Translations under genes and position numbers: made by a program
The notes under the pieces: generated by a model
What the model was told of the DNA's origin: nothing
What the model saw: only the letters and a program-made list of their open reading frames with translations
Database searches by the model: none
NCBI GenBank assembly: GCA_002898315.1
Contig: BEHV01000015.1
Span: forward strand, 1 to 45,680
Source: a bacterium HR19
GTDB lineage: Bacteria; Calescibacteriota; Calescibacteriia; Calescibacteriales; Calescibacteriaceae
Length of the DNA stretch: 45,680 nt
Reading direction: 5' to 3'
Part shown: positions 1,511-41,231 of the stretch, in pieces
Position numbering within the stretch: the first letter of the stretch is position 1
Layout of the letters: every line of letters starts with the position of its first letter

Positions 1511-2496
1511 CGCAACGCACTTTTTAATCTTCTGATGTCTTCTTCTACCATTATTCTTACGAGCTCCTCAAAAGTTGTTCTTGGCTCCCATCCCAGCTTT
1601 TTTTTAGCTTTTGAGTAGTCGCCACGAAGCTCGTTTATTTCACCAGGTCTATACAATTTTTCATCTATAACAACATAATCTTTCCAGTCAAGACCGACAT
1701 AGCTGAAAGCCAACTCAACAAGCTCTCTTACAGAATGAGTTCTGCTTGTTGCTATGACATAATCATCTGGTTCATCTTGTTGGAGCATAAGCCACATCGC
1801 CTCAACATATTCCGGAGCATAGCCCCAATCCCTTTTCGCATCAAGGTTCCCAAGCCGAAGCTCATTGGCAAGTCCCAATTTGATCTTTGCTACTGTGTAA
1901 GATACCTTTCTTGTGACAAACTCTATACCTCTTCTTGGGGACTCATGATTAAAAAGTATTCCGTTTACAGCGAAAATGTTGTATGTCTCGCGGTAATTTC
2001 TTGTGAGGTGGAATCCTGCAAGTTTTGATATACCGTAGGGTGAACGAGGATAGAACGGGGTTGATTCATTCTGCGGTGATTCCTTTGCGTTCCCGAACAT
2101 CTCACTTGATGCGGCAAAATAAAACTTACACTCAGGAGCTCTTTCTTTGATAGCGGAAAGAATAAAATGAGTTCCATTTATGTTCACATTCATAGTTGAG
2201 AACTCGTCTTCAAAAGAATAGCTAACATAGCTTTGAGAAGCAAGATGATAGCACTCGTCTGGCTTCACCTCTTCAACAACCTTGAAAATACTCGCATAGC
2301 TTTCAAGAGAAGCGGGATGCAAGATAATTTTATCAAGTATATGTTTTATTCTCCACAACCTGTGTTCTGGGTCTTCAAAAGCAACACGTCTCACAATACC
2401 ATGGACCTCGTACCCCTTTGACAGCAAAAACTCCGCAAGGTAAGAGCCATCTTGACCTGTTATTCCGGTAATCAGAGCTTTTTTCTTCTTTCCCAC
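1507..2496 (-). CDS. gmd: GDP-mannose 4,6-dehydratase
   Basis: Converts GDP-D-mannose to GDP-4-keto-6-deoxy-D-mannose, the precursor of GDP-fucose, GDP-rhamnose or GDP-perosamine for surface glycans. It is an extended short-chain dehydrogenase: the NADP-binding motif GITGQDGSYL is at the N-terminus, followed by YHLASQSYV, SSEMFG and the catalytic SPYGISK (YxxxK). The length of about 330 residues is slightly shorter than most Gmd proteins. The frame can be extended to a TTG at 2505, but I prefer the GTG at 2496: it gives the usual N-terminus (GKKKKALITG) and sits seven bases after a TAAATT hexamer. No fcl, rmd or per gene lies within the window, so the final sugar is not known. It converges on the flippase gene with overlapping stop codons. 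Confidence 0.95.
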   Translation of the reverse strand: MGKKKKALITGITGQDGSYLAEFLLSKGYEVHGIVRRVAFEDPEHRLWRIKHILDKIILHPASLESYASIFKVVEEVKPDECYHLASQSYVSYSFEDEFSTMNVNINGTHFILSAIKERAPECKFYFAASSEMFGNAKESPQNESTPFYPRSPYGISKLAGFHLTRNYRETYNIFAVNGILFNHESPRRGIEFVTRKVSYTVAKIKLGLANELRLGNLDAKRDWGYAPEYVEAMWLMLQQDEPDDYVIATSRTHSVRELVELAFSYVGLDWKDYVVIDEKLYRPGEINELRGDYSKAKKKLGWEPRTTFEELVRIMVEEDIRRLKSALR

Positions 2497-2503
2497 AAAA
2501 TAC

Positions 2504-2509
2504 AATTTA
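2504..2509 (-). promoter_or_regulatory. candidate -10 element of a leaderless gmd transcript
   Basis: TAAATT on the minus strand, seven bases before the GTG proposed as the gmd start. No Shine-Dalgarno sequence is present. It is one of eleven such placements in the window. Confidence 0.4.
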
Positions 2510-2561
2510 AGTCAAATAAAAATAACTCTTCTTCTCTTCAATTCCTTTGAAAAAAGTTTTT

Positions 2562-3053
2562 TTATTCCAGATTTTCCGAACCAATTTTCTGATTGTTCGG
2601 AACGGTTATCTCTATTTCTCTTTCGTTATCTTTTTCCAGAACCCTGATTTTTATGATGATGTAATTTTCATCTTTGTAATGATTTATATCTAGTTTTTCA
2701 GCCCACTCAACAAAAACCACATAATCGCCCTGATTTATCTTTTCATATATGTAGTTCAGAATATCTCCTAAATCTTCTTCTCTATCAATCCTGTAAAGGT
2801 CAACATGGGCGATATTTTTTTTCTCTCCGTAATACTCCTGAATTATTGAGAATGTTGGAGATGTTATCTCATCTTCTGGAACTCCGAAAACTTTTGACGC
2901 ACCTTTGACAAAAAGTGTTTTTCCACTTCCAAGCTCACCGAAAAGAAGAAAAAGCTTCTTTTCCCTAAATCTTGAAGCTACAGATGAAGCTATCTCCTTT
3001 GTTTCCCTTGGAGAGCGAGAGATAAAGGTTAGCTTTTCCACTTTATAGTGCAA
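2562..3053 (-). CDS. tsaE: tRNA threonylcarbamoyladenosine biosynthesis ATPase TsaE
   Basis: TsaE (YjeE family) is the cytoplasmic ATPase that works with TsaB and TsaD to load threonylcarbamoyl on A37 of ANN-decoding tRNAs. The Walker A motif GELGSGKT is at residues 39-46, followed by the family motifs TSPTFSIIQEY and HVDLYRID. At 163 residues it has family length. The start is a TTG at 3053, inside the end of the redoxin gene (25-base overlap); a GTG at 3041 is the alternative. The overlap suggests translational coupling to the redoxin gene. The partners tsaB, tsaC and tsaD are not in the window. Confidence 0.93.
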   Translation of the reverse strand: MHYKVEKLTFISRSPRETKEIASSVASRFREKKLFLLFGELGSGKTLFVKGASKVFGVPEDEITSPTFSIIQEYYGEKKNIAHVDLYRIDREEDLGDILNYIYEKINQGDYVVFVEWAEKLDINHYKDENYIIIKIRVLEKDNEREIEITVPNNQKIGSENLE

Positions 3054-3553
3054 CCCACTGGGGGTGTCTCTTGAATTTCCGGTTTCTTGCCTTCAAGCAA
3101 GCTCTTTATAGCGTCTTCAAAGTAGTGGTTTTTAACTTTGCTCTCATCTTCCCAGTTATCATCAGGCGCCCCGTGATAGACGAGCTTTCCTTCTGAATCA
3201 AACAAGAATATTTCGGGAGTTCTCTGGGCGCCGTAAGCTTTGGGGACACTCTGACTCTCATCAAAAAGATAAGGGAATGGATAACCCTTCTCCTCAGCTC
3301 TTTTTTTCATGTTCTCAAAAGAATCCTCGGGATACTTCGTGGTATCGTTTGCTGATATCAGAATAAAATCAACCTTATCTTTATATTTTTTTCCGAGTTT
3401 TATTATTCTATCTTCCCATGCTTTGACATAAGGACAGTGGTTCGCCCAGAATATAATCGCTTTTGGTTTCTTCGGGTCAAAAGAAGAGAGAGAATAAACC
3501 TTACCATCAACTCCCGGAAGTTTAAAATCAATTATCTTATCCCCTATCCTCAT
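3029..3553 (-). CDS. thioredoxin-fold redoxin, PRX-like family
   Basis: A 174-residue thioredoxin-fold protein of the AhpC/TSA-like 'thioredoxin family protein' group. The redox site region reads ANHCPYVKAWEDR, with Cys40 as the only cysteine, not a CXXC pair. A second conserved cysteine, Cys168, lies in the C-terminal VGCTIKWK motif that marks this subfamily. Known members have no firmly assigned substrate; a thiol peroxidase or disulfide-exchange role is inferred from the fold. No signal peptide is visible, so it is probably cytoplasmic. The start ATG lacks a clear Shine-Dalgarno sequence. tsaE overlaps its 3' end. The 179-base gap to the divergent mutL gene must hold both promoters. Confidence 0.85.
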   Translation of the reverse strand: MRIGDKIIDFKLPGVDGKVYSLSSFDPKKPKAIIFWANHCPYVKAWEDRIIKLGKKYKDKVDFILISANDTTKYPEDSFENMKKRAEEKGYPFPYLFDESQSVPKAYGAQRTPEIFLFDSEGKLVYHGAPDDNWEDESKVKNHYFEDAIKSLLEGKKPEIQETPPVGCTIKWKS

Positions 3554-3719
3554 AGTAATCTATTTTTATGAAGGTAGATTTAAATCTCTGATTTTTCAAT
3601 TTTTTCCAACTTCTATTTCACTTCTGAAAACGAATCTGGAAACGGAAACAAAACTTAAAGGTAAAAATTAATAAATTCACCTTGATGAGCAAATTTAACA
3701 TATTGACGAAAAATCAAGA

Positions 3720-3725
3720 TAGTTT
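3720..3725 (+). promoter_or_regulatory. candidate -10 element of a leaderless mutL transcript
   Basis: TAGTTT seven bases before the mutL ATG, with no Shine-Dalgarno sequence between them. A TTGACG at 3703-3708 lies only 11 bases upstream, too close to serve as a normal -35 element for this hexamer. Confidence 0.4.
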
Positions 3726-3732
3726 TTAGATT

Positions 3733-5406
3733 ATGGCAGATGAAGAGAGAAAAATAAAAATTTTGCCTGAGAAGGTAGCAAACCTGATAGCAGCAGGGGA
3801 GGTAGTTGAAAGACCGGCTTCTGTTGCGAAGGAACTTATAGAAAACTCAATAGATGCTGGCGCAAGAAAAATAGAAGTGTTTGTAAAAGGCAGAGACGAG
3901 ATTTCTGTTTTTGATGATGGAGAAGGAATGAGCGAGGGAGATCTGCTCCTATGTTTCCAAAAACACGCAACAAGCAAAATAAGTTCAGAGGAAGACCTGA
4001 CCTATATATCAACATTTGGATTTCGCGGAGAAGCTCTGCACGCCATATCTCTTGTCTCAAAAATGATAATAAGAACAAAGAGAGAAAATGATGAGATCGG
4101 AACAGAAATAAGTATAGAAGGAGGAAAACTCAAAAGCATAAAAAAAGTTTTCATTGATACAGGAACTCAGGTCATAGTAAAAGATATTTTCTTCAATACT
4201 CCTGCGAGAAAAAAATTTCTCTCAAGAGAAAATGTTGAGTTCTCCTACATAGTAGATGTTTTCTCAAGATTCGCACTCGCTTTTCCAAATTTATATCTCA
4301 AACTCATAAAAGACGAAAAAATAGTTTTAAACCTTAAACCAAAAAGAACTCTTTCAGATACAATATCATCTCTTTTCGGGAGCGAACCGCTTAAAAAAGA
4401 TAAGTTTGAACTCCTTCTATCAATAGGAGATATAAACTTGGAAGGAATTATATGGAGAGACAAAGTGGGAGCAGGAAGATGGATATTCGTAAACAAAAGA
4501 TATGTGAAAGATAAAACTGTGTTTTCTGCTATATCCAAATTCAATTTTCTCAAAAGCAGTGATTTCATAATTTTCATAAGCTGTCCCCCCGAATTCTATG
4601 ATGTGAATGTCAATCCAACTAAAACGGAAATAAGATGGAGAGCTCCCTCAAAAATAAAAGAGATAATAATAACTGCAATAGAAGAATCTATAAGGCACAA
4701 AGTCAAAAGAGATTATATTGAAGAAAAAAAATATACTCAAATATCAGAGGTGAGGACACGACTTGCAGAAAGTAAAATCGCACAACCAGAAAAAACCACT
4801 CAAACAGAAATCAAACAAGATAAAAAAGAGCAAACAAAAACCCGAGAAGAAGAAAAACTACTCAAAACCTCACCAAAAATACTTACAGTACTTAGGGGAA
4901 TCATAGCAGTCGTAGAGTGGGAAGGAGAACTTTACCTTGTTGATATACACGCATACCACGAAGGAAAAATATACTCATCTTTAAAGGAAAAATTTGAAAA
5001 CAAAAAGACAGAAAAATTAAGATTTGTGACTCCGTTTGAAGTGGAAGTCCCAAAAAGAACAGCAGAAATAATAAAAGAAAGAAAAAACGAGCTATATGAA
5101 ATGGGAATAGAAGCAGAGTTTCAAGAAAACAAAATAATCGTAAAAGCAATACCTTTTTATCTATCAGGAGTTGACCTAAAAGATTTCTTCTTGGAGGTAG
5201 AAGAAGGATTGGACAGCAAGAAGATTGAAAAGTTTCTTGCAGGGAACTCTTGCAGAACAGCTCTGAGAAAAGGAGACAGAATAAATATATGGGATATTTC
5301 AGCGATTTTGAGCGACTTTGATGTGAATCAACGATGTCCACACGGTAGACCCGCGGTCATAAAACTTGACATTGATGAGATAGAAGAAAAATTCGGAAGA
5401 TGCTGA
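3733..5406 (+). CDS. mutL: DNA mismatch repair protein MutL
   Basis: MutL is the GHKL ATPase that couples mismatch recognition by MutS to strand incision. The N-terminal ATPase (1-330) has the catalytic glutamate in AKELIENSIDAGA, DDGEGM, GFRGEALHAI and the transducer motif VNVNPTKTEIR. A charged linker (about 330-385) leads to a dimerisation and endonuclease domain. There, DIHAYHE (404-410) stands for the DQHA(X)2E core, SCR is at 506-508 and CPHGRP at 535-540, so this looks like a nicking MutL and not the MutH-dependent type. Two motif positions differ: Gln is Ile405 and the last Glu is Ser415. The length of 557 is within the family range. mutS is not in the window. The start ATG has no Shine-Dalgarno sequence. 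Confidence 0.96.
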   Translation: MADEERKIKILPEKVANLIAAGEVVERPASVAKELIENSIDAGARKIEVFVKGRDEISVFDDGEGMSEGDLLLCFQKHATSKISSEEDLTYISTFGFRGEALHAISLVSKMIIRTKRENDEIGTEISIEGGKLKSIKKVFIDTGTQVIVKDIFFNTPARKKFLSRENVEFSYIVDVFSRFALAFPNLYLKLIKDEKIVLNLKPKRTLSDTISSLFGSEPLKKDKFELLLSIGDINLEGIIWRDKVGAGRWIFVNKRYVKDKTVFSAISKFNFLKSSDFIIFISCPPEFYDVNVNPTKTEIRWRAPSKIKEIIITAIEESIRHKVKRDYIEEKKYTQISEVRTRLAESKIAQPEKTTQTEIKQDKKEQTKTREEEKLLKTSPKILTVLRGIIAVVEWEGELYLVDIHAYHEGKIYSSLKEKFENKKTEKLRFVTPFEVEVPKRTAEIIKERKNELYEMGIEAEFQENKIIVKAIPFYLSGVDLKDFFLEVEEGLDSKKIEKFLAGNSCRTALRKGDRINIWDISAILSDFDVNQRCPHGRPAVIKLDIDEIEEKFGRC

Positions 5407-5437
5407 AAAGTTCCTACCTTAAACCAAAAAAGAGTTT

Positions 5438-6613: not shown

Positions 6614-6686
6614 AAAGTTCTTTTTCCTCCCTTCCTGCGAAAATTTTATTCCTATCCTAGCAAATTTAAAAATAATCAGGAAAGTT

Positions 6687-8693
6687 TCAATTCTCTGTCG
6701 CATATTTAAGACCTTTACATCCGAAAACATCATCAAGGTTGATCTCATCTCCGAGAAGTTTTGAGTATTCAAGATAGTAAGAGAGAGCTCTCATGGTGTA
6801 AAAACGGGTCTGTCTGTAAGGTATATTTTCAAGGAACAGTTCTGGATTTGAACAGATTATATCTTTCATATCCTCATGCCATTTTTTTACCGCATTTGGT
6901 CCAGCATTATACGCAGCTATTGCGAGCATGTAAGAGCCGAGCATGGTTTTGAGTTTCCAGATATAGTGGGTGCCAGCTTTTATATTTATTTCTGGCTCAA
7001 ATAAAAAATCCTGTGTGAAAGGAATTTTCATCTCGTAGAAGACCTCCTTTGCAGTTGGGAAGATTATCTGCATAACTCCGATAGCGCGAGAAGGAGAAAT
7101 TGCAATAGGGTTAAAATGCGACTCTATAAGAGCTATTGAGAATATGAGCGCTCGGGGAACTTTATATATAGATGATGCTTTTGCTATCTCCTTGACAAAT
7201 GATACGGGAGGGGGAGAATAAACTGAAAAAGTAGAGCGAAAATCTCCCGTCGGTAGAAAATATCTGAAAAATCCTCTTAATTTTAACCAAGAAATTTCCT
7301 CCTGCGTAAAAGAAAGAGAGTTTAAGATTGAATTTATGAGTCCATAAGTCAAAGATGAATCAGAAAGATAAATTTTCAAAAAATATAACTCCTCTACCCT
7401 TTTTGACGGTGCTGGGAAATCAATCTTTTCTATATCAATTTTTCTTACGTCATCAAACCTCAGATTAGAAAAGCCCTCTTTATATTTATCTATGAGGAAT
7501 AAAAAGCCCTCTGGCTTATAAGATATTTTGAAATTAAAAATGTGGTGCAGAATGTATCTTGCTCTGTTTTTTATGTCTTCATAAGCAGATTGAGATGCAG
7601 AAAGAAGGAGCTTTTGTGATTCAGCATGCAACTTTCTCTTCTCTTCCCCGTTCTCAATTGTAATTCCTTTCAGGTATTTTTCTACTGCAAGCTTTATAGC
7701 GAGGTCTCCAGCCAACCTTTCAGATGAGAACAACTCAATGTATTTGCGAGCAAAACTCTCAAATCTTTCGGTATCTGGGACTTTTTTTCTCGCATAAGAA
7801 AAAAGCAAAACAACATAAAGCTTTTCAAGATTTTCTTTTTTTCTTTCTTTGTCAATGATACTTTCGGCGTATGTTACAGCTTTCTCGTATTCTCTAATCC
7901 CAAAATAAGCTCTGGCAATTTTCAGCTTATCATCTGTCCACATCAGAACATCTCTATACATCCCTTTTTGGAAAAGCATATCTGCTATCTTTTCTCTCTG
8001 ATTTGGGTCAAGAGATTCCTTCAAACTTTTACCGTATAACCTCAGCGAAAAATCCTCGGCTCTTTTGATTCTATCTTGATAATAAGGAATAAAATCATGG
8101 GGGTTTATCAGACTATCTACATAACTATAAAGGAAAAGCTTCGCTCTCTCTTTGAGATTTTCACTTTCATATATATTTCCTCTCTCTCTGAGGAATATGA
8201 TTTTTCTTTCAAGACATGTGAGAGCAAGTTCAAAAAACTCTGGAATATAAGATTTAGGTAAAGCGAAGTTCTCACTTTCAAACCTCTCACATATTTTCTG
8301 CTCTTTACCCGTCTGAAAAGCTATGTAAGCGAGGAGTTGCAGGACAAGGTCGTAAAAAACAAAATAGCTCGTTATAGATGTAAGATATTTTTCCGCCTCG
8401 GAGAAGTTGCCAAGCATAATGTAAGCTCTTCCAATATAATACTTTGCCCAATCACTAAAATATGTATCTAACCCACTTTCCAGAAGAAAAATAGCCCTAT
8501 CATAGAGTTTATAGTCAGCAAGAAGTTTGAGACCGTAAGCAAATTTTGCGATATTGACTTCACTTTCTTTCGGCTCTCTCTCTATTATCTTCCCCAAAGT
8601 TCTTTCGGGAATGAACCAAAACTGAAAGGAAAAAGCAACGAGAAGAAAAAATTTCAGAACCAGATTTTTGAAAAATCCTTTCAGTAAGCGCAT
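6687..8693 (-). CDS. soluble lytic murein transglycosylase with helical repeats
   Basis: Exported peptidoglycan-cleaving enzyme of the Slt70 type (GH23). The N-terminus (MRLLKGFFKN followed by a hydrophobic run) is a signal peptide or anchor. A long alpha-helical, TPR-like region (about 30-500) precedes the C-terminal SLT domain. That domain shows the catalytic glutamate in ALIESHFNP, then SRAIGVMQI and AIAAYNAGPNAV, the order found in goose-type lysozyme-like transglycosylases. I choose the ATG at 8693 over the one at 8711. It gives a compact signal peptide and sits seven bases after TAAAAT, and neither codon has a Shine-Dalgarno sequence. The length of 668 is close to E. coli Slt70. Citrate synthase follows on the same strand. 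Confidence 0.9.
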   Translation of the reverse strand: MRLLKGFFKNLVLKFFLLVAFSFQFWFIPERTLGKIIEREPKESEVNIAKFAYGLKLLADYKLYDRAIFLLESGLDTYFSDWAKYYIGRAYIMLGNFSEAEKYLTSITSYFVFYDLVLQLLAYIAFQTGKEQKICERFESENFALPKSYIPEFFELALTCLERKIIFLRERGNIYESENLKERAKLFLYSYVDSLINPHDFIPYYQDRIKRAEDFSLRLYGKSLKESLDPNQREKIADMLFQKGMYRDVLMWTDDKLKIARAYFGIREYEKAVTYAESIIDKERKKENLEKLYVVLLFSYARKKVPDTERFESFARKYIELFSSERLAGDLAIKLAVEKYLKGITIENGEEKRKLHAESQKLLLSASQSAYEDIKNRARYILHHIFNFKISYKPEGFLFLIDKYKEGFSNLRFDDVRKIDIEKIDFPAPSKRVEELYFLKIYLSDSSLTYGLINSILNSLSFTQEEISWLKLRGFFRYFLPTGDFRSTFSVYSPPPVSFVKEIAKASSIYKVPRALIFSIALIESHFNPIAISPSRAIGVMQIIFPTAKEVFYEMKIPFTQDFLFEPEINIKAGTHYIWKLKTMLGSYMLAIAAYNAGPNAVKKWHEDMKDIICSNPELFLENIPYRQTRFYTMRALSYYLEYSKLLGDEINLDDVFGCKGLKYATEN

Positions 8694-8700
8694 AAAAGAA

Positions 8701-8706
8701 ATTTTA
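8701..8706 (-). promoter_or_regulatory. candidate -10 element of a leaderless transglycosylase transcript
   Basis: TAAAAT on the minus strand, seven bases before the ATG at 8693 (the longer version is TATAAAAT). It overlaps the first codons that would exist if translation began at 8711, which argues for the inner start. Confidence 0.45.
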
Positions 8707-8783
8707 TACATTTGACAGGAAATGAAAAATTTGAGACACGAATTATTTCCTAAAATTTATCTCTTTCCCCTAAATTCCTATTT

Positions 8784-8806
8784 TTTATATCTGTTAAAAA
8801 TATAAA
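8784..8806. promoter_or_regulatory. inverted repeat upstream of the TetR-type gene, possible operator
   Basis: TTTATAT and ATATAAA are separated by nine bases in the region between the divergent transglycosylase and TetR-type genes. TetR-family repressors usually bind such palindromes near their own promoter. The arms are entirely A/T, so chance is a serious alternative. Confidence 0.25.
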
Positions 8807-8841
8807 TTAAAATTCTTTAAAATATCGGGGAGGTGGAAAAT

Positions 8842-9866: not shown

Positions 9867-9895
9867 GTTTTTGATCTGAAAAATTTACCGGAAAA

Positions 9896-10462: not shown

Positions 10463-10513
10463 CTTACAAAACTTTCTGAAAGAAAAGGTTTGACAAATAT
10501 CTTTCCTGTTGAA

Positions 10514-11181: not shown

Positions 11182-11187
11182 AATTTA
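11182..11187 (-). promoter_or_regulatory. candidate -10 element of a leaderless transcript (217-residue gene)
   Basis: TAAATT on the minus strand, six bases before the ATG at 11175, without a Shine-Dalgarno sequence. It forms a back-to-back pair with the element at 11262-11267. Confidence 0.4.
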
Positions 11188-11261: not shown

Positions 11262-11267
11262 TAAAAT
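11262..11267 (+). promoter_or_regulatory. candidate -10 element of a leaderless transcript (LPP20-like gene)
   Basis: TAAAAT six bases before the GTG start at 11274; no Shine-Dalgarno sequence. Confidence 0.4.
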
Positions 11268-12616: not shown

Positions 12617-14275
12617 TCAGAAAAATATTATGTTGAGCAAGATGAGTATTGTAAGCGAAAGTAAAGCCCAAAACTCAGCTTTCTTGAAAAATGGTATGTT
12701 TTTCTTCTGACTTTCTTCACTTTCTGTATCCAACCCCAAGACAAGTCCTTTTATTTTTTCTTCTGGATTTGGTTTTGTGAAAAACGAAAGCGAAAGTGTT
12801 ATGATAAATGTTACAAGCCAGCTCCACCAAGCACGCCAGAGGTTCAAACTCATCTCGCTCGCATCACGACTGAATGCTATATGTGACGGAGATATAAACC
12901 CCTGTCTAACTCCGAAAAACAAAAAGAACGAAAAAATAATCCCTATGGTAAGTCCATAAAACGCAGAAGTCGGAGTAATTCTTTTTGAGACCATACCTAA
13001 AAGAACAACTGCAAACAAAGGCGCATTAACCCATGAGAAGATCGCCTGAATGTAATCCATTATTGTGGGGAACCTCATAGCCCAGTAAGCGGAGGATATT
13101 GAAAGGAGTATGCCGACAAAAGTTGAAATCCTTCCGACAAGAACGAGCTCATCTTCATCTGCTTTTGGTCTAAAGATGGGTTTATAAATATCTTGTGTGA
13201 AGACGGTATTGAAAGCGGTGATGTTTCCTGCCTGACCTGCCATAAACCCAGCAAGGAGAGCGGTAACACCAAGTCCTATAAGACCTGGCGAATAGTAGTG
13301 CATGATAAGAGCGGGAAGAGCGGAATCATAGACATGGTTGCCGTTCTCGTCTAAAAGGAGTTTTATCTCTCCCGTTTGGATAAGGCGCAGTGCTATAAGT
13401 CCGCCGAAAGAAACAACAAAAGGCAGAGCCATTTTGAAAAATGAAGCTATTATTGGAGCAAGGCGAGCCGACTCAAGGTCTTTCGCAGCAAAAGCCCTCT
13501 GAATGACTAAAAAATCAGTAGTCCAATAACCAAATGAAAGAACCCAACCCAATCCAAGAATAATTCCCAAAAATGTTATACCCATAGGATTTTGAGAAGG
13601 AGAAAGTGTATTGCTCCAGAGCGAAACCATGTCTTTTGGGAACTCCTTGATAAAGGAAAATCCTCCAAAATCTATTATACCTAATACAGCTACGAAGACA
13701 AGTCCGAACCACACAAGGAAAAACTGAACAACTTCGGTAAATATAGCAGATGTAAGTCCGCCGAGAGCAGTGTATATCGCAACAGTAAGAGCAGAAACCC
13801 ATATACTCACATGCCAGTTCCATCCCAAAATCAATTTGAAAATAAGAGCCATAAGGTATATGTTCACGCCTGACATAAGAACAGTCATGATGGCAAACGA
13901 TAGAGCGCTTACAAATCTTACTCTTTCGTCAAACCTGAAACTGAGGTATCCGGGCAAAGAAATTATGTTTTTTTTGTAGTAAAAACGCATCATGAAGAGT
14001 CCCAAAAAAAGCATTGCGGGAACCGCACCTATCCAGTAAAAGTGAGCTGTCAAAATTCCGTATTTCAAAGACGCACCCGTCCAACCCAAAATCTCCAACG
14101 ATCCAAGGTTAGCAGATAGAAAAGCAAAAGCTGAAACCAAAGCAGAATTCCTCCTTCCTGCAAGGAAAAAATCCTCATTACCATAACTCCATCTCCTCAG
14201 ATAAAAACCTATCGCAAGGATAAAAACAAAATAAAGAAAAACAATAAGCCAGTCCAGAAATTTCAGCTCCAACAT
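12617..14275 (-). CDS. sodium:solute symporter (SSS family)
   Basis: A 552-residue secondary transporter driven by the sodium gradient. It has at least twelve hydrophobic segments with the LeuT-like SSS layout. The family motif around FFLAGRRNSALVSAFAFLSANLGS is near residue 35, and AGFMAGQAGNITAFNTVFTQDIYK matches the conserved GxMAxxxSxxxsxxs...D region. Overall it is closest in pattern to sugar or inositol symporters (SglT-like), but the solute cannot be fixed from sequence. The frame opens at a TTG at 14281; the ATG at 14275 is better and has TAAATT seven bases upstream. Only 64 bases separate this start from the divergent murE start, so both promoters must be very compact. Confidence 0.9.
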   Translation of the reverse strand: MLELKFLDWLIVFLYFVFILAIGFYLRRWSYGNEDFFLAGRRNSALVSAFAFLSANLGSLEILGWTGASLKYGILTAHFYWIGAVPAMLFLGLFMMRFYYKKNIISLPGYLSFRFDERVRFVSALSFAIMTVLMSGVNIYLMALIFKLILGWNWHVSIWVSALTVAIYTALGGLTSAIFTEVVQFFLVWFGLVFVAVLGIIDFGGFSFIKEFPKDMVSLWSNTLSPSQNPMGITFLGIILGLGWVLSFGYWTTDFLVIQRAFAAKDLESARLAPIIASFFKMALPFVVSFGGLIALRLIQTGEIKLLLDENGNHVYDSALPALIMHYYSPGLIGLGVTALLAGFMAGQAGNITAFNTVFTQDIYKPIFRPKADEDELVLVGRISTFVGILLSISSAYWAMRFPTIMDYIQAIFSWVNAPLFAVVLLGMVSKRITPTSAFYGLTIGIIFSFFLFFGVRQGFISPSHIAFSRDASEMSLNLWRAWWSWLVTFIITLSLSFFTKPNPEEKIKGLVLGLDTESEESQKKNIPFFKKAEFWALLSLTILILLNIIFF

Positions 14276-14282
14276 AACCAAA

Positions 14283-14288
14283 AATTTA
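14283..14288 (-). promoter_or_regulatory. candidate -10 element of a leaderless symporter transcript
   Basis: TAAATT on the minus strand, seven bases before the ATG at 14275. The whole gap to murE is 64 bases, which leaves almost no room for leaders. Confidence 0.45.
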
Positions 14289-16669: not shown

Positions 16670-16675
16670 TAGAAA
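16670..16675 (+). promoter_or_regulatory. near-match -10 element upstream of transketolase
   Basis: TAGAAA lies seven bases before the ATG at 16683. It fits the window-wide placement but has A instead of T in the last position. Confidence 0.25.
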
Positions 16676-19434: not shown

Positions 19435-19440
19435 TAGATT
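19435..19440 (+). promoter_or_regulatory. candidate -10 element of a leaderless korA transcript
   Basis: TAGATT (within TATAGATT) seven bases before the korA ATG. The 88-base gap after the AMMECR1 gene is A-rich and contains no Shine-Dalgarno sequence. Confidence 0.45.
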
Positions 19441-19447: not shown

Positions 19448-21406
19448 ATGGAAGAATCAGAACTTGGCGCAAGAAGAAAATTAGAAAAGGTAACGGTAAA
19501 ATTCGCAGGTGATTCAGGAGACGGAATACAGCTTATTGGTTCTCAATTTACTGTATCAACAGCAATATATGGGAATGATTTTGCTATTTTCCCGGAATTT
19601 CCAGCAGAGATAAGAGCCCCGGCTGGAACAACCTATGGGGTTTCAGCATTCCAGATACAATTTGGAGCGATAAACATAATGACGCCGGGAGACGAACCAG
19701 ATGCTCTTGTCGCTTTCAATCCCGCAGCTCTGAAAATTAATTTAAATCTTCTCAAACCCGGGGCGCTTGTAATCTTGAACATTGACGAGTTTGACGAAAT
19801 AAACTTCAAGAAAGCAGAATGGCACAGCATAATAAAAGGAGAAGAAAACCTTGATGAAATACTCTCAAAATACGAAGTGATAAAAGTTCAGATGAACAAA
19901 CTCGTATTAGATGCTCTCAAAGATGTAAATCTTCCTCACAAAGAAAAATTAAGGTCAAGAAACTTCTTTGCTCTCGGTCTTGTATGCTGGATATTTGTAA
20001 GACCCCTTGAACCAATCCTCAAATTCATAAAAGAGAACTTTGGAAAGAAACCAGAGATAGCTAAGGCAAATGAACTCGCTCTCAAAGCTGGCTATAACTA
20101 CGGAGAAACTCTTGAAATTCAACACAAATTTGTCAAAATAGAAATACCAAAATACAAATTTGAGCCTGGAAAATATAGATACATTTCTGGGAATGAAGCT
20201 TTTGCACTCGGTATTCTTGCGATAAAAGAGAAGGCGAAAATTCCCATTGTTTTTGCATCGTATCCGATAACTCCCGCAAGCGATATTTTGCACTACCTTG
20301 AATCATATAGAAACTTCGGCATAATAGCTTTGCAGATGGAAGACGAAATTTCTGCTGTAAACACAGCAATCGGAGCATCTTTTGCAGGTGCTCTTGGAAT
20401 TACTGCAACAAGTGGTCCGGGTCTTTCCCTCAAATCAGAAGGAATAAACCTCGCGGTGATGACAGAACTTCCTCTTATTGTCATAGATAAGCAGAGGTCA
20501 GGACCATCAACAGGAATGCCTACAAAAACAGAACAAACAGACCTTCTATTCGCACTCTTTGGAAGGCATGGTGAATCACCCCTGATCGTCATAGCTCCAA
20601 TAAGTGCAGGAGATTGCTTCTACTCAATAATAGAAGCAGCAAAACTAGCAATAAAATATATGACTCCTGTGATAATACTTTCTGAACTTTACATCGCCAT
20701 GGGTTCAGAACCCTGGAAAATACCAGATATAAGTAAAATACCAGATATAGAAGTCAAGTTCTGGAAAGATGGAACAAAATTTTATCCATACTCACGAGAT
20801 GAGAACACACTTGCGAGACCGTGGGCAAAGCCAGGAACTCCGGGGCTTGAACACAGAGTCGGAGGGCTTGAAAAATCTCACATATACGGCAGGGTTTCGT
20901 ATGACCCACAAAACCACGACTTTATGGTAAAGCTGAGAGCTGAAAAAATAAGAAGAGCTCAGGCAGATATACCAGATGTTGAAGTTTACGGAGAAGAAGA
21001 CGCAGAACTTCTGGTCCTTGGATGGGGAAGCACATTCGGACACATAAGAGCAGTAGTTGAAAGAGCAAGAGAAAAGGGCTGGCCAGTCGCTCACGCTCAA
21101 CTAAAATACATCAACCCATTCCCCAAAAACCTTCCAGATGTACTCAAAAAATTCAAAAGAATCCTTATTCCTGAACTTAACCTCGGTCAGCTACTCCTGC
21201 TTATAAGAGGAAAATTCCTCGTAGATGCTGTTGGTTTCAACAAGGTGACAGGAACTCCTTTCAAAGAATCAGAGCTCATGATGGCAGTAGAAAGAGAACT
21301 TATGAACATGGAAAAAGAAGGAAAACTCTCAAAACCAGTTCACATACAGGAAGGAAGATTTGAAGAAAAAGAAAAAGGAGGTGCGGTAAAACATGCAACA
21401 GCTTGA
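19448..21406 (+). CDS. korA: 2-oxoacid:ferredoxin oxidoreductase, fused gamma-alpha subunit
   Basis: With KorB it oxidatively decarboxylates a 2-oxoacid to acyl-CoA, or runs in reverse, with ferredoxin as electron carrier. The first 200 residues are the gamma domain (KFAGDSGDGIQLIGSQ, PAEIRAPAGTTYG). The rest is the alpha domain, with YPITPASDILHYLE, MEDEISAVNTAIGASFAG, TSGPGLSLKSEG and RSGPSTGMPTKTEQ. This fused two-subunit form is most often annotated as 2-oxoglutarate:ferredoxin oxidoreductase; a different branched or straight 2-oxoacid cannot be excluded. No ferredoxin-like delta subunit gene is adjacent. At 652 residues it is slightly longer than most. It overlaps korB by 14 bases. Together with citrate synthase it implies an oxidative or reductive TCA cycle. 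Confidence 0.92.
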   Translation: MEESELGARRKLEKVTVKFAGDSGDGIQLIGSQFTVSTAIYGNDFAIFPEFPAEIRAPAGTTYGVSAFQIQFGAINIMTPGDEPDALVAFNPAALKINLNLLKPGALVILNIDEFDEINFKKAEWHSIIKGEENLDEILSKYEVIKVQMNKLVLDALKDVNLPHKEKLRSRNFFALGLVCWIFVRPLEPILKFIKENFGKKPEIAKANELALKAGYNYGETLEIQHKFVKIEIPKYKFEPGKYRYISGNEAFALGILAIKEKAKIPIVFASYPITPASDILHYLESYRNFGIIALQMEDEISAVNTAIGASFAGALGITATSGPGLSLKSEGINLAVMTELPLIVIDKQRSGPSTGMPTKTEQTDLLFALFGRHGESPLIVIAPISAGDCFYSIIEAAKLAIKYMTPVIILSELYIAMGSEPWKIPDISKIPDIEVKFWKDGTKFYPYSRDENTLARPWAKPGTPGLEHRVGGLEKSHIYGRVSYDPQNHDFMVKLRAEKIRRAQADIPDVEVYGEEDAELLVLGWGSTFGHIRAVVERAREKGWPVAHAQLKYINPFPKNLPDVLKKFKRILIPELNLGQLLLLIRGKFLVDAVGFNKVTGTPFKESELMMAVERELMNMEKEGKLSKPVHIQEGRFEEKEKGGAVKHATA

Positions 21407-26724: not shown

Positions 26725-26730
26725 AAATTA
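26725..26730 (-). promoter_or_regulatory. candidate -10 element of a leaderless gatA transcript
   Basis: TAATTT on the minus strand, six bases before the gatA ATG. Confidence 0.4.
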
Positions 26731-27983: not shown

Positions 27984-30944
27984 TTGAAAAAAGAAATCCT
28001 CATACCTCTCATAGCGCTCCTCATCTTAGCAGTCGGTATAGCGGTGGGATTAGCACTATGTCCGGAAAAAAAAGCACCAGCACCAGAAGTATCCGTCTTC
28101 CCATCCCCTACATCTGGAATATCACCACTTGAAATAACTATCAGCGTCAAAATTAATTCCCAAATTGAACTCAAAAGCATATCAGTATCAATAGACGAAA
28201 AAGAGATTTTCTCAAAAGATATAAGCGGAGATTTTTCCGAAACAATAACAAACTTTTCAATAAATATCACAGGAGGAAGGAAATTCGGAGACATAAACCT
28301 CTCTTACTTACTGGTGGTCACGGGAGCGCCAGCAAAAATATTCAAAATAAAAGCAGAAGCAACTAACTCAAAGGGGATAAAAAAAGACGCTTTATCAGAA
28401 GTCATCGTATATGAGAACAAGCCATGCTCTGTAAACATATATATTGTATCCCCACAGGAAACCCCCATATCTCCTCCACCCTTTCCAGTTCAGTTAGGTG
28501 CAGCAGTGACAGACGATAAATGTGGGAACTTCACAGCAGCTCAGGGAACCACCTGCAACTTCAAATTTATATGGGATGCAGATAATCAAGGTGGAGATTT
28601 CACTCCCGACGGCGAAACAAATCAACCATCTTTCACCTTCACATATAACTCTTTCGGAATCTATACCCCAAAAGTCAAAGTCATTGACGACGGAGGGAAC
28701 GAATGCGAAAGTCAAAACTTTGTCCCCGTTTATGTTGCAAGAAGAATAGAAAAAATTAATCCGCTCTTTTTCTCAAACATCTTCCCTTCTATACAATCCT
28801 TTCAGCTGAACGATAAAATAAAAGTTTTTTCATCACAAGTTGATTTCGGCGTATCTGAATACACAATAAATAAATCTCAACCAGAACTCATACTTGAATC
28901 AACAAAAAAAATCGGAGAAACAAATATCGGAGTAGATTTCGGGAAATATGATTCAACACCTGCGATATTTTACAAAACACCCGGAAAAATTTATGTTTTT
29001 CCTATATCAGACAGAGTTAATTGGGGAAATAAGATAACCGAAATCAATCTGACATACGAGGAAATGAGATTCTTATCTTTTGAGAACAAGGTGACATTTA
29101 TCGCTACTTTCACCGGGGATGTATTTTCTGCTTGCCCACTTATGCCATCGGCTGGATTCCTTGGTGAAGTATGTTTGAGGTATTCTTTAAAATACAGGTT
29201 TTCTTCTCCGTACTCATTTTTTATTGACGGAGACAATCTTCTCGTCGCCCACTATGTATCTGGATACCTAAAAGTCGTTGTATATTCTTTCTCTTTGAAA
29301 TTTTCTTCTTCTTACGGAATATATATTTTGGAGGGTCCGAACGAAACTTACGAGGTAGATGTTGCATATCCTTCATCACACATAGAGTTCTTCAAAGAAA
29401 ACGGAAAGATATATATTGCTATTTCCTCAGCAGACATAAATTTTTCAGTAGCTTACAGAACCTATATTTTAGATTTTTCATCTTGCAGAACAGGGAACTG
29501 CTCTTTTGTTCAGAGAACAAATATAAGTATGGAAAGCGTCATTTCAAATATAGCCCGTATGGAGATATGTCCAACGTCTGAGCCGTCGGAGTTCAGAGCG
29601 AACATTCTTGATTTCCTGATCCCAAGTGATTTTGCTTTCTGCGGAAACTTAAAGTGTATCTTATCGCTTTTGTGTCTTGATGACATCACGCGGGGGAGAA
29701 AGTGTGCCAAAAATGCGGTATATCCGTTTATCTTCTCCGGTGGAGAGGTGCTGAAAAACCTGAACGCAAACTGCGTAGAAACAGAACCTCAGAGCAATAT
29801 TGTTTATGCGTGGGGAACGACAGCGGTTCTATCATCAAAAGCATTTTTATCTTTATATGATTTCTCCGCAAAAACCAGCTCAAAAATTTTAGATATAGAT
29901 TCGCTCTTTCTTGAACCCGAATCTCTGTCGGGATATGAAAAAGAAGGGGACTTCTATGTATCTCTCGGAGGTGCAGGAGGAGTAAATATTTTGAAATTCA
30001 ACTTTGATGGGAACTTATCTGACCTTGTCTCTCATATTTATGTTAGACCTGAGGGAAAATTCGCTGATAACACATATTCCGTCAAAGAGCATTACTTAGA
30101 CGATAACATACTCGTTGCGGTTTTAGAGAAGCCGGGTTGCGGTGAAGAATGGATATTTTCAGGCATAATAATATATGATATGAAAAACTCTGACCTGCTC
30201 AAAAGAAGAAAGTACAAAGTGTATATACCCTACTCCCAAATTGATATACATTCGGTTTCAAATCTTTTTGTGATAAAAGATTCTGCATTCAAGTACAGAA
30301 TGATTGTATCTGGAACAAAATGCCAGACCACAGAATACACAACAATAACTTACGAAATTGATATTTCTGATTTCAGTGTGAGGGAAATTGGAAGAATCAA
30401 GTTCGGAGAGTCGCCCTTATCTTTTGAGGGAATACCTGGGGGAGAAATTTTTATAAGCTCACCGAAAAAAATCTTTCTCATAGATGGGAATCAGGTAAAA
30501 AAAGAATTAGATGAAGAAGGAGGAGGGATTCTCAGATTTTACAAGGGATTGCTGTATGAAGTCGGTTCGCGTGGCAATTACATCAGCATAAAGGTTTTTG
30601 ACACAAACCTTGTGAAAAAAGACGAGTTTTCTTTTTATGTTGGCGTTTATCCTTCTGTTTCATCTGTAAAGATAGCTTCGGCTTTTGATGAATTTTTTGG
30701 CACTGGAGATATTGACCTTATATTTGCCGGGCTTTCAATACCACAGATTTACTCAAAAGTTTCAGCTCTGATGGTGTTTGACGCAACAGAATACATAAAA
30801 TTCGGGAGACCAATAAGATTTCTTGGAGTAGTACCCGCGCAATTTGACATAGGAGCAGTAGATATTCTGTTTTTCAGAGGTTCAAAAAACATGATATTTC
30901 TGCTTGATTTCTCAAAGGTTCTATTCAGAATATTTTTGAAATAG
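27984..30944 (+). CDS. large exported protein with PKD-like domain, function unknown
   Basis: A 986-residue protein. Residues 4-26 are a strong hydrophobic segment ending in a cysteine (VGLALCPEKK). The residue before that Cys is Leu, so a signal anchor is as likely as a lipoprotein signal. Two Ig/PKD-like beta domains follow (about 35-145 and 150-252); the second has the PKD-style TFTYNSFGIYTPKVKVIDDGG. The remaining 700 residues are beta-rich with recurring aromatic strands and no recognised repeat family; a beta-propeller is possible. Several Cys pairs suggest disulfides outside the cytoplasm. The start is a TTG six bases after the tRNA-Pro CCA, with no room for a separate promoter or Shine-Dalgarno site, so it is probably cotranscribed with the tRNA. 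Confidence 0.75.
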   Translation: MKKEILIPLIALLILAVGIAVGLALCPEKKAPAPEVSVFPSPTSGISPLEITISVKINSQIELKSISVSIDEKEIFSKDISGDFSETITNFSINITGGRKFGDINLSYLLVVTGAPAKIFKIKAEATNSKGIKKDALSEVIVYENKPCSVNIYIVSPQETPISPPPFPVQLGAAVTDDKCGNFTAAQGTTCNFKFIWDADNQGGDFTPDGETNQPSFTFTYNSFGIYTPKVKVIDDGGNECESQNFVPVYVARRIEKINPLFFSNIFPSIQSFQLNDKIKVFSSQVDFGVSEYTINKSQPELILESTKKIGETNIGVDFGKYDSTPAIFYKTPGKIYVFPISDRVNWGNKITEINLTYEEMRFLSFENKVTFIATFTGDVFSACPLMPSAGFLGEVCLRYSLKYRFSSPYSFFIDGDNLLVAHYVSGYLKVVVYSFSLKFSSSYGIYILEGPNETYEVDVAYPSSHIEFFKENGKIYIAISSADINFSVAYRTYILDFSSCRTGNCSFVQRTNISMESVISNIARMEICPTSEPSEFRANILDFLIPSDFAFCGNLKCILSLLCLDDITRGRKCAKNAVYPFIFSGGEVLKNLNANCVETEPQSNIVYAWGTTAVLSSKAFLSLYDFSAKTSSKILDIDSLFLEPESLSGYEKEGDFYVSLGGAGGVNILKFNFDGNLSDLVSHIYVRPEGKFADNTYSVKEHYLDDNILVAVLEKPGCGEEWIFSGIIIYDMKNSDLLKRRKYKVYIPYSQIDIHSVSNLFVIKDSAFKYRMIVSGTKCQTTEYTTITYEIDISDFSVREIGRIKFGESPLSFEGIPGGEIFISSPKKIFLIDGNQVKKELDEEGGGILRFYKGLLYEVGSRGNYISIKVFDTNLVKKDEFSFYVGVYPSVSSVKIASAFDEFFGTGDIDLIFAGLSIPQIYSKVSALMVFDATEYIKFGRPIRFLGVVPAQFDIGAVDILFFRGSKNMIFLLDFSKVLFRIFLK

Positions 30945-30992: not shown

Positions 30993-30998
30993 TATTTT
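30993..30998 (+). promoter_or_regulatory. candidate -10 element of a leaderless rpsL transcript
   Basis: TATTTT seven bases before the rpsL ATG; no Shine-Dalgarno sequence, in contrast to rpsG. Confidence 0.4.
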
Positions 30999-31409: not shown

Positions 31410-31448
31410 AAATGATAAACATTTAAAAAATTTTTCGGAGGGAAAGTT

Positions 31449-31922
31449 ATGCCGAGAAAAGGGAAAGTAGAACACAGAGAGGTAAAGCCAGACATAGTTT
31501 ACGGAAGTGTAGAGGTGGAAAAACTCATAAACAAGATAATGAAAGATGGGAAGAAATCTCTTGCAAGGTACATAGTTTATTCTGCATTTGACCTGATAAA
31601 GCAAAAGACCGGGAAAGACCCGCTTGAAGTTTTCAAAAAGGCACTAGAGAACACCCAACCAGAAACGGAAGTAAGAACAAGAAGAGTCGGAGGAGCAACC
31701 TATCAGGTCCCCATAGAATGTCTTCCGAAGAGAAAAATTCATCTCGAGCTAAAATTCATAGTTGAAGCGGCAAGAGAGAGAAAAGATAAAAAGACAATAA
31801 TAGAGAGGTTAGCTTATGAGATAATGGAAGCAGCAGAAGGTAAAGGTGAAGCGGTAAAGAAAAAGGAAGAACTGCACAAAATAGCAGAAGCAAACAGAGC
31901 TTTTGCACATTACAGATGGTAA
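31449..31922 (+). CDS. rpsG: small ribosomal subunit protein uS7
   Basis: Primary 16S rRNA-binding protein of the 30S head. Family motifs include [15 protein letters not shown] at the start, [41 protein letters not shown] and a C-terminus with [11 protein letters not shown]. The length of 157 is typical. The ATG follows GGAGGG with a six-base spacer, a strong ribosome-binding site expected for an operon-internal gene. It lies 47 bases after rpsL. No further str-operon gene follows. Confidence 0.98.
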
Positions 31923-32573: not shown

Positions 32574-32624
32574 ATCCCCTTCAATATATTTTCAACACAA
32601 AAAACAAAAAGATCAATTTGAACA

Positions 32625-35381: not shown

Positions 35382-35387
35382 ATCAAA

Positions 35388-35393
35388 AATGTA
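35388..35393 (-). promoter_or_regulatory. candidate -10 element of a leaderless exporter transcript
   Basis: TACATT on the minus strand, six bases before the ATG at 35381. Confidence 0.35.
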
Positions 35394-35424
35394 AAAATCT
35401 TTTTTCAGAAAAATGTGAAAATTA

Positions 35425-35438
35425 ACCTAATTTTAGGT
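35425..35438 (-). terminator. small inverted repeat between the kinase-like and exporter genes
   Basis: ACCTAA and TTAGGT flank a two-base centre; on the minus strand TAATTTTC follows. It sits between the end of the HPt-ATPase gene and the start of the exporter gene and could be a weak terminator. The stem is short. Confidence 0.25.
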
Positions 35439-35461
35439 AGGTTTTTGAGAAGGGAAAAAAT

Positions 35462-36268: not shown

Positions 36269-36455
36269 AAACAAAACAAAGCAAAATCAAAAAGCAATAA
36301 ATGAAAAGTTCAATCTCAAATATAATAAAATTAATATCGTTAAAAAATTTTTTAATCTTTACATAAGAGATTTTAGGAATTTGTCGGGTTTAGCCAGAAA
36401 TTTTCCGAACAACAAAAAATGCAAAAACAAAAAACATCAGAGCACTGCTTAAAGA

Positions 36456-36461
36456 TAGAAT
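36456..36461 (+). promoter_or_regulatory. candidate -10 element of a leaderless pheS transcript
   Basis: TAGAAT six bases before the pheS ATG, the best -10 match in the set, with no Shine-Dalgarno sequence and no visible leader-peptide attenuator. Confidence 0.5.
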
Positions 36462-36467
36462 AATAAA

Positions 36468-37511: not shown

Positions 37512-37518
37512 AAAACAT

Positions 37519-38988: not shown

Positions 38989-39032
38989 AAAAAACAAATT
39001 CAAAAACCGGCTTGAAAAACTCAAATCGCTAT

Positions 39033-41195
39033 TTATATTCTGCTGACATTTTCTACGCTTTTCATCGCAGAGAGGTTATTTAGAATCTGCTCAACCTCTT
39101 GCTTGCTTTTGACTTTGACTTTCAGCTCAACCTGAAAAGCCCCGTTATCTTCTCTTGATATGAACTCGCTTATCTTAAATCCTTTTTTCCTCAGCGACTG
39201 CAATACATCGTTCAGAGAATCAAACGACTTTATGTTGAATTTTATCTTGCTTATGTAGTCAATATTATCTGGCAGATAATCTTTTGGTATTTTTATTATT
39301 CTTTCAGTATCAAGGTGAGACAATTCTGGGCAATCTGCTCTGTGTATTACTATTCCGTAACCTTTGGTTATATATCCGACGACATCGTCATGATACACCG
39401 GGGTACAGCAAAGGGCAAATCTCATCTGAACTCCTTTCAAGTCACCATAGAGAAAAGTTTGAAAGCTCTTTTGAGATATTTCTTTTGTATTATCTGTTTC
39501 TCTGGCGTTATCGCTTTCGGGAGAGACCTGCTTCTTTTGCTCTCCATCTTGCTCAATAAATCTTTTGAGAACGCGCAGGAATGAAGAGAGTGGAATCTTC
39601 CCTGCTCCTATGTACATATATAGGTCTTGCGGGGATTTCAGGTTAAGCGATGCTATTGCTTTTGATAAAATTCCTTTCCTGATAATATCGTTGAGATTCA
39701 GTCCGAACTTCCTGAGTTCTCTTTTGAGGATTTCTTCACCTGTTTCTATGTTGATCTGTTTTTCTCCCTTTGAGAGCCACTGCTTTATTCTGGCTCTCGC
39801 TTTTTCTGTGACGACAAAGTCAAGCCAGTTTCTCTTAGGTTTCTGATTTTTAGATGTTATAACTTCTACAATATCTCCGCTTCTCAAGACATAATCTATG
39901 GGTTGGAGTTTTCCGTTGACTCTCGCTCCGACGCACGAGAGACCGAGGTCTGTGTGGATTGTGAAGGCGAAATCAAGAACAGTAGCACCGCGAGGCAAAA
40001 TCTTGACATCTCCTTTTGGAGTGAAAACATATATCTCATCCGGATATATATCTTGGCTTATTTTCTTGACTTCGTACTCGGGGTTTTCTCTTGAAAGTTC
40101 AAGCACACTCCTTAACCAAGAGAATATTTTCAGACCTGATGGGGAAATAGGGGATTTTTCTTTGTAAGCCCAGTGAGCAGCAATTCCTTCTTCTGCTTCT
40201 TTATGCATCTCAAATGTTCTTATCTGAAACTCCGCTCTCTTACCTCCCTCTAAAATCACTTTTGTGTGAAGAGATTTATAACCGTTGGGCTTTGGTATAG
40301 CTATGTAATCTTTGAACTTTCCGGGAATGGGTTTGAAATATGTATGTAAAACTCCCAAAACCCTATAACAATCTTCAACGGTCTGAACAATTATTCTGAA
40401 TCCTATTATATCATACACATTTTCTATGTCTATTCCCTGTCCCACCATTTTGTTCCAGATGCTGTATATTCCTTTTACTCTGCTTTCAACTTTGAAGTTT
40501 TCAATACCTTCTTTTTTGAGGATAGATGAGGTATAGTCCTCTACTTCTTTTATGAGTTTTCTGCCATCTGAGATTATATCTCTTATTTTGTTTTTTATGT
40601 ATCTTGCTGCGTTCGGATAAAGCACTTCAAATGACCTATCTTCAAGTTCTGTTTTTATATTGTAAAGTCCTAATCTATGGGCTATTGGAGCGAAGATTTT
40701 GAGGGTTTCATCTGCGATCTTCCTTGCTTTCTCTTCTGGCAAAAACTCAATTGTTCTTATGTTGTCAAGACGGTCCGCTATTTTAATGAGTATAACTCTC
40801 ACATCTCTTGCCATAAAGACGAACATTTTTCTGAGGTTTTCTATCTGCCTTTCTTCTGCTTTGAGATTAACATCAAGCTTTGAGATTTTCGTCACTCCGT
40901 CAACCAAGAAAGCCACTTCATCTCCAAAATGCTTTGCTATATCTTCTATTGTTTTTTGTGTATCTTCTGCAACATCGTGCAAAAGCCCAGCAGCAACTGA
41001 CTTATCATCTGTTTTCAGCTCTGTGAGAATCTTCGCAACAGAGAGGGGATGGACTATGTATGGCTCTCCAGAAAGTCGGAACTGATCTCTGTGGTAATAA
41101 GAAGCATATATGTAAGCCCTTCTTATAAGAGAGAGGTCAGGCATAGGATGATAGCTTGATATGGCAGAGCATATCTCTTTTATGCTAACAGACAT
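39033..41195 (-). CDS. bifunctional (p)ppGpp synthetase/hydrolase (Rel/SpoT)
   Basis: Stringent-response enzyme with both activities apparently intact. The HD hydrolase domain (about 25-180) shows His49 in YIVHP, HDVAED at 73-78 and IADRLDN with Asp144. The synthetase domain (about 235-345) has SRVKGIYSIWNKM, GKFKDYIAIPKPNGYKSLHT and Glu322 in AEFQIRT. A TGS domain (about 386-450) and a C-terminal ACT domain (about 645-720) complete the long-RSH architecture. The length of 720 is standard. As the only RSH gene in view it is probably Rel-type, but paralogues elsewhere cannot be excluded. The upstream gap holds an inverted repeat that overlaps the -10-like TATTTG. Confidence 0.96.
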   Translation of the reverse strand: MSVSIKEICSAISSYHPMPDLSLIRRAYIYASYYHRDQFRLSGEPYIVHPLSVAKILTELKTDDKSVAAGLLHDVAEDTQKTIEDIAKHFGDEVAFLVDGVTKISKLDVNLKAEERQIENLRKMFVFMARDVRVILIKIADRLDNIRTIEFLPEEKARKIADETLKIFAPIAHRLGLYNIKTELEDRSFEVLYPNAARYIKNKIRDIISDGRKLIKEVEDYTSSILKKEGIENFKVESRVKGIYSIWNKMVGQGIDIENVYDIIGFRIIVQTVEDCYRVLGVLHTYFKPIPGKFKDYIAIPKPNGYKSLHTKVILEGGKRAEFQIRTFEMHKEAEEGIAAHWAYKEKSPISPSGLKIFSWLRSVLELSRENPEYEVKKISQDIYPDEIYVFTPKGDVKILPRGATVLDFAFTIHTDLGLSCVGARVNGKLQPIDYVLRSGDIVEVITSKNQKPKRNWLDFVVTEKARARIKQWLSKGEKQINIETGEEILKRELRKFGLNLNDIIRKGILSKAIASLNLKSPQDLYMYIGAGKIPLSSFLRVLKRFIEQDGEQKKQVSPESDNARETDNTKEISQKSFQTFLYGDLKGVQMRFALCCTPVYHDDVVGYITKGYGIVIHRADCPELSHLDTERIIKIPKDYLPDNIDYISKIKFNIKSFDSLNDVLQSLRKKGFKISEFISREDNGAFQVELKVKVKSKQEVEQILNNLSAMKSVENVSRI

Positions 41196-41198
41196 AAA

Positions 41199-41231
41199 CT
41201 CACAAATAAAAATTTAGTGATATTTTGTGAG
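41199..41231. promoter_or_regulatory. inverted repeat overlapping the Rel gene promoter region
   Basis: CTCACAAA and TTTGTGAG are separated by 17 bases, directly before the Rel start codon. The proximal arm overlaps the -10-like hexamer. It could be an operator for a dimeric regulator, or a hairpin that ends pyrD transcription. Confidence 0.35.
41203..41208 (-). promoter_or_regulatory. near-match -10 element upstream of the Rel gene
   Basis: TATTTG on the minus strand, seven bases before the ATG at 41195; the last base deviates from TANNNT. Confidence 0.25.

Follow-up and report, generated by a model that had tools for sequence, protein, structure and literature searches.

TANNNT hexamers abutting start codons point to extensive leaderless gene expression in a genome of the phylum Calescibacteriota

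Introduction

Leaderless bacterial genes marked by a TANNNT hexamer are already established (PMC3160421, PMC12340547). The Deinococcota, the most prominent phylum of a survey of 2025, carry the hexamer a few bp before the open reading frames (ORFs) of leaderless genes without a Shine-Dalgarno (SD) site, in about 30% of ORFs, and experiments show it to be the -10 element of the promoter (PMC12340547). Zheng et al. (2011) described TA-led genes in 207 of 953 bacterial genomes (PMC3160421), and the GeneMarkS-2 survey, as cited in PMC9581028, reported leaderless transcription in 21.6% of bacterial species, with up to 40% of transcripts. Here we analyze a 45,680-nt stretch of DNA from bacterium HR19 of the phylum Calescibacteriota (contig BEHV01000015.1, here called the window), in which an earlier note had described TANNNT hexamers directly before the start codons of eleven genes, together with the draft genome to which it belongs.

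We found such hexamers position-locked before start codons throughout this genome. We assign a probability of about 0.92 to the reading that the promoters of these genes abut the start codons and that transcription would start at the first codon, leaving the mRNAs leaderless or nearly so. As in the Deinococcota, a TANNNT near the ORF goes together with the lack of an SD site, and the leaderless share seems comparable. Unlike that system, the present one is predicted from sequence, and it belongs to a low-G+C genome of an unrelated phylum, with the consensus TAaawT and an RpoD-like sigma factor without W433. With the study of Zheng et al. it shares a TA-like signal about 10 bp upstream of the start and its detection by an expectation-maximization (EM) mixture in which SD and TA signals are modelled together; their low-GC cases have TAtAAT (Firmicutes), whereas TAAAAT and TAAATT dominate here, and candidate phyla like the present one are absent from the groups listed in that text (PMC3160421). 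Leaderless and SD initiation are mixed within one genome, as in the genomes of the GeneMarkS-2 survey. No report of leaderless genes for the present lineage was found in the literature searched, with the species lists of the surveys outside its scope. About a quarter to a third of the genes seem to be arranged in this way, which would place this genome among the most extensive cases in bacteria. What is new here is a proline at the otherwise invariant W433 of the dnaG-adjacent RpoD-like sigma factor in all five genomes of the phylum.

Materials and Methods

The window is one of the 22 contigs (contig 15) of a 1.876-Mb draft genome with a G+C content of 36.9%, similar to the 35.2% given for Calescamantes in PMC4791363. 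All contigs were joined for the genome-wide tests, contig 22 consisting of N only. This genome is labelled G000 and four related genomes G001–G004; the phylum is represented by five genomes of one family. Genes were called from 3-periodic hexamer coding statistics alone, with upstream signals not used, which gave 1622 genes and 89.7% coding DNA. When the start caller was benchmarked on E. coli, 39 of 41 3' ends were found, and 25 of those 39 starts were exact; wrong start calls dilute the measured share of genes with a TA box. Genes with a divergent neighbour, or with an upstream gap of 40 nt or more, were taken as promoter-proximal, operon position being judged by distance only. Genes carrying the TA box are called TA genes here. 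The spacer is the number of nucleotides between hexamer and start codon, and hexamer starts at -15, -14, -13 and -12 correspond to spacers of 9, 8, 7 and 6. As controls we used 42 slid windows and decoy ATGs (1187 + 1491 + 1013; intergenic, out of frame and in-frame downstream). The background of TANNNT, measured in the upstream DNA of the genome, is 3.2% per position. Ab initio motifs were sought with an EM mixture on a third-order background, which was started either from SD and TATAAT or from a nearly empty second motif. A zero-order background was rejected, as it recovered only runs of A and T besides the SD motif.

Results and Discussion

A hexamer locked to start codons across the genome

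TANNNT occurs with its first base at -16 to -12 in 442 of the 1247 promoter-proximal genes, compared with 183 +/- 14 in the slid windows (maximum 215; z 18.5). The earlier note had staked its reading on a genome-wide peak just 5' of the starts, and that peak is present. Its frequency is 7.0% at -15, 8.1% at -14, 9.5% at -13 and 6.7% at -12; one base further on, at -11 (spacer 5), it is down to 3.3%, a sharp cut-off. The hexamers had been placed exactly six or seven bases before the start codon, which is too narrow, since spacers of 8 and 9 are enriched as well. None of the three sets of decoy ATGs gave a TANNNT peak. With the identical pipeline, the Thermus thermophilus plasmid pTT27 as a positive control peaked at -13 and -12 and dropped off at -11, and 250 kb of E. 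coli as a negative control gave no peak. The spacing in the present genome (6-9) is thus broader than the pTT27 peak at 6-7. Two hexamers dominate: TAAAAT, seen 112 times (expected 13.7), and TAAATT, seen 66 times (expected 11.7). Exact TATAAT, with 12 hits, is rare beside the 112 of TAAAAT. The TA genes start with ATG in 406 cases, GTG in 38 and TTG in 2 (n = 446).

The EM mixture independently recovered the same signal from the starts of the genome, in line with the motif search that had been suggested. It assigned 17% of genes to the SD motif AAGGAGGTG and 39% to an A/T motif, wTAaawTt, whose hexamer stands mostly at -16 to -12. A position weight matrix (PWM) gave an excess of 44.6% of the non-SD promoter-proximal genes, or about 450 genes and 28% of all, and the strict TANNNT excess (442 - 183) equals 16% of all genes. 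The leaderless or near-leaderless share is thus probably 16-39% of genes. SD and TA signals are mutually exclusive (380 versus 1), which is partly geometric since the sites overlap.

The earlier note had also expected the hexamer at the first genes of operons and SD sites at internal ones. This holds as a gradient. The EM share of the TA motif is 46% for divergent genes, 48% for same-strand gaps of 40-100 nt, 25% for gaps above 100 nt and 29% for gaps below 40 nt. However, many TA genes have an upstream neighbour on the same strand, among them gmd, korA, gatA, rpsL and the MMPL exporter gene of the window, and intergenic distance is the better predictor. In divergent gaps of 60-79 nt, TA signals reach 62-64% and SD signals 0-4%; in gaps longer than 150 nt the TA share drops to 22-26% and that of SD climbs to about 25%. 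Where there is room for a promoter only, genes would be leaderless, and where there is more room, many have a leader with an SD site. In the divergent gaps of 60-79 nt, two promoters would need to share the same space.

The hexamer in its promoter context

We then investigated the DNA around the hexamer, which the earlier note had read as a -10 element that sets the transcription start at or beside the start codon. Several features support that reading. TTGA is over-represented at 23 bp ahead of the first hexamer base, corresponding to a 17-bp spacer (13 hits versus about 3; p 6e-5), and AAA runs are phased about 10 bp apart, near -19, -28 and -39 from the hexamer, resembling the A-tracts of UP elements. 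The base just before the start codon is T in 66% of TA genes, and in 76% of those with spacer 7, compared with 46% of SD genes and 34% of decoy ATGs, as expected if the first transcribed base is the A of the start codon. Spacers below 6, which would put the RNA start inside the codon, are not enriched. Furthermore, in 236 promoter-proximal genes with an SD-like site, hits of the -10 PWM are depleted close to the start but in excess at -50 to -21 (115 observed, 58 expected; p 3e-11). The near-complete restriction of TA starts to ATG and GTG and the dependence of both signals on gap length point the same way. A classic TTGACA -35 element, sought upstream of the TA hexamers, is rare, with only TTGA enriched, and an extended -10 element (TGn) was seen in only 9 of 380 cases. 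TTGA peaks a second time at 32 bp ahead of the first hexamer base, some 9 bp upstream of where a -35 element normally lies (15 hits against about 3).

We propose that the hexamers are -10 elements of the sigma-70 type with the consensus TAaawT, mostly TAAAAT or TAAATT, 6-9 bp before the start codon. From what is known of leaderless mRNAs, RNA polymerase would initiate on the first base of the start codon (A or G) or 1-3 nt earlier, yielding an mRNA without a leader and without a ribosome binding site, and the 5'-terminal AUG would be bound directly, typically by 70S ribosomes. A like promoter placed 21-50 bp before the ATG would serve the SD-led genes.

Some observations weigh against this proposal. 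Spacers of 8-9 may yield leaders of 1-3 nt. The imperfect start caller (25 exact starts of 39 genes found in E. coli) makes the TA fractions uncertain. A TA rate of 18% at internal genes (gap < 40 nt) indicates that the class is not clean, and about 40% of the promoter-proximal genes have neither a TA nor an SD signal. Conservation of the TA box between individual orthologues is modest (15 TA-TA pairs versus 10.7 expected) because of saturation in the upstream DNA.

Alternative readings

The boxes could be real -10 elements while promoters farther upstream also feed the transcripts, so that leaderless mRNA would be only part of each gene's output. We regard this as a tenable but rather doubtful alternative. 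Many TA genes have a same-strand neighbour 40-100 nt away, making read-through possible; there is no direct counterpoint, and this alternative qualifies, but does not exclude, the proposal of promoters abutting the start codon.

A TA-rich box might instead act in translation within a real leader, as an AU-rich S1 element or a non-SD site like that of the Bacteroidetes. AT-rich non-SD translation signals do exist in other bacteria (PMC9581028, PMC6847099), the genome has an S1-like gene, and T-richness runs up to the ATG. Nevertheless, the motif at -50 to -21 of SD-led genes is impossible for a start-proximal translation signal, TTGA and the A-tracts stand at promoter spacing, the cut-off at spacer 5 and the T at -1 fit RNA polymerase, and the divergent gaps of 60-79 nt leave little space for a promoter plus a leader. 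We therefore consider a translation signal very improbable. The third alternative, AT-richness combined with a biased choice of start codons, draws on the facts that some starts had been picked with the pattern in mind and that two of the eleven genes need alternative ATGs, but it is already refuted by a position-locked excess that survived the slid-window and decoy controls with starts called from coding potential only, with no peak in E. coli and with hardly any change when alternative starts were permitted.

On the translation side, the anti-SD sequence at the 3' end of the 16S rRNA (GGATCACCTCCTTTC) is intact, and SD sites are used by about 17% of genes. A divergent S1-like protein is encoded on contig 13 (G000, 29054-30544, - strand), with a score of 210 bits where the cut-off is 577. 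This cut-off was passed by only 2 of 14 control genomes, so the low score may be ordinary.

An RpoD-like sigma factor without W433

The best RpoD-like protein of the genome (G000 contig 11, 57234-58610, - strand) scores 226 bits against the cut-off of 354 of TIGR02393 (RpoD_Cterm). All five genomes stay below this cut-off, the four counterparts of the sigma factor scoring 208-229 bits. The protein has sigma-70 regions 2, 3 and 4, and region 4.2 retains RERVRQ. In G000 its gene follows dnaG directly, and in each of the other four genomes the 3' end of dnaG is found ahead of it. The position next to dnaG is the classic position of rpoD. We infer from this that the protein would be the primary sigma factor, and it probably reads the TAAAwT boxes. 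The five genomes are 82-86% complete, and an identical gap in all of them is unlikely.

Region 2.3/2.4 of the protein reads KFSTYAVPWLRQA, where all sigma factors of other lineages readable by the motif used have YATWW. In E. coli numbering, W433 is replaced by P, T432 by V and Y425 by T in all five genomes, and W434 is retained. The invariant tryptophan dyad of group 1 sigma factors (W433/W434) is thus broken by P at W433 in 5/5 genomes. A DNA pattern for F[ST]TYAVPW matched the five genomes of the phylum and one other of 386; this sole outside match is a 14-residue fragment and was rejected as not being a sigma factor. The pattern for the canonical F[ST]TYATWW was found in 72 of 98 genomes and in none of the five of the phylum. 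W433 (W256 in Taq) is invariant in 100% of 1002 housekeeping sigma factors and acts as a wedge in promoter opening (PMC4593229), and Y425, Y430, W433 and W434 have been named as important (PMC4496690). One could speculate that the primary sigma factor of the phylum has been remodelled (W433P, T432V, Y425T and T440 to M or I) and opens promoters unlike every studied housekeeping sigma factor, in which case the TAAAwT -10 element and the abutting promoters would be adaptations to this enzyme, perhaps eased by a high growth temperature; we hold this only tentatively. An RpoD-like sigma factor without the W433 wedge offers a natural test of how essential this residue is.

Relatives and significance

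A search with rpsL gave hits of at most 80% identity. In the portions of G001 and G003 that were analyzed, with genes called separately, TA signals stand at 26% and SD signals at 13-14% of promoter-proximal genes, an elevation as in G000. Among orthologues agreeing on the start, 30 of 59 G000 genes carry the TA box. The box of rpsL is common to G000, G002 and G004 (TATTAT at -14 in G004). Comparing single positions with G001 and G003 gave no information on conservation, the upstream DNA being saturated.

If the reading of abutting promoters holds, a deep and poorly known phylum would join the few bacterial groups with leaderless transcription as a main route of expression. The genome is low in G+C and poor in SD sites, and the route would extend to core genes, rpsL and pheS among them. 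Programs that look for SD sites when placing gene starts will tend to misplace them in such a genome. The intergenic-distance rule separating leaderless from SD-led genes is simple and testable in other genomes.

Genes of the window

The window genes are listed in Table 1. Of the eleven genes said to have TANNNT 6-7 nt before the start and no SD site, nine do so at the tested ORF start, and the transglycosylase and symporter genes fit only at alternative ATGs. The true starts of these two are probably downstream of the longest-ORF starts (window positions 8693-8711 and 14275-14281), because the -10 box overlaps or directly precedes the longer start. For the MMPL exporter, the first ATG of the ORF was used; the coding-only caller had chosen GTG 35282, downstream. 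Among about 28 promoter-proximal genes of the window (hand count), the binomial probability is 6e-7 for 11 hits and 4e-5 for 9. The chance of a hexamer at one of two positions had been put at 1/8, which is conservative because the measured background of 3.2% per position gives about 1/16. The three near matches (transketolase, murE and Rel) and the SD sites of citrate synthase, korB and rpsG broadly agree, in the window sequence, with their earlier description.

Table 1. Hexamers and contrasting SD sites before window genes
Gene	Element	Position	Strand	Placement	Identification
gmd	TAAATT, -10 hexamer	2504..2509	-	7 nt 5' of GTG 2496	product GDP-mannose dehydratase
mutL	TAGTTT, -10 hexamer	3720..3725	+	7 nt 5' of ATG 3733	TIGR00585
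transglycosylase	TAAAAT, -10 hexamer	8701..8706	-	7 nt 5' of ATG 8693, second ATG of the ORF	SLT domain
217-residue gene	TAAATT, -10 hexamer	11182..11187	-	6 nt 5' of ATG 11175	
LPP20-like gene	TAAAAT, -10 hexamer	11262..11267	+	6 nt 5' of GTG 11274	LPP20
symporter	TAAATT, -10 hexamer	14283..14288	-	7 nt 5' of ATG 14275, alternative start	SSF
transketolase	TAGAAA, near match	16670..16675	+	7 nt 5' of ATG 16683	sequence
korA	TAGATT, -10 hexamer	19435..19440	+	7 nt 5' of ATG 19448	TIGR03710
korB	AGGAGGTG, SD contrast	21375..21393	+	overlaps korA	
gatA/amidase	TAATTT, -10 hexamer	26725..26730	-	6 nt 5' of ATG 26718	PF01425
rpsL	TATTTT, -10 hexamer	30993..30998	+	7 nt 5' of ATG 31006	TIGR00981
rpsG	GGAGG, SD contrast	31431..31449	+	directly after rpsL	
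MMPL exporter	TACATT, -10 hexamer	35388..35393	-	6 nt 5' of ATG 35381	PF03176
pheS	TAGAAT, -10 hexamer	36456..36461	+	6 nt 5' of ATG 36468	TIGR00468
rel	TATTTG, near match	41203..41208	-	7 nt 5' of ATG 41195	sequence

Besides citrate synthase, korB and rpsG, tetR is a further SD-led gene of the window.

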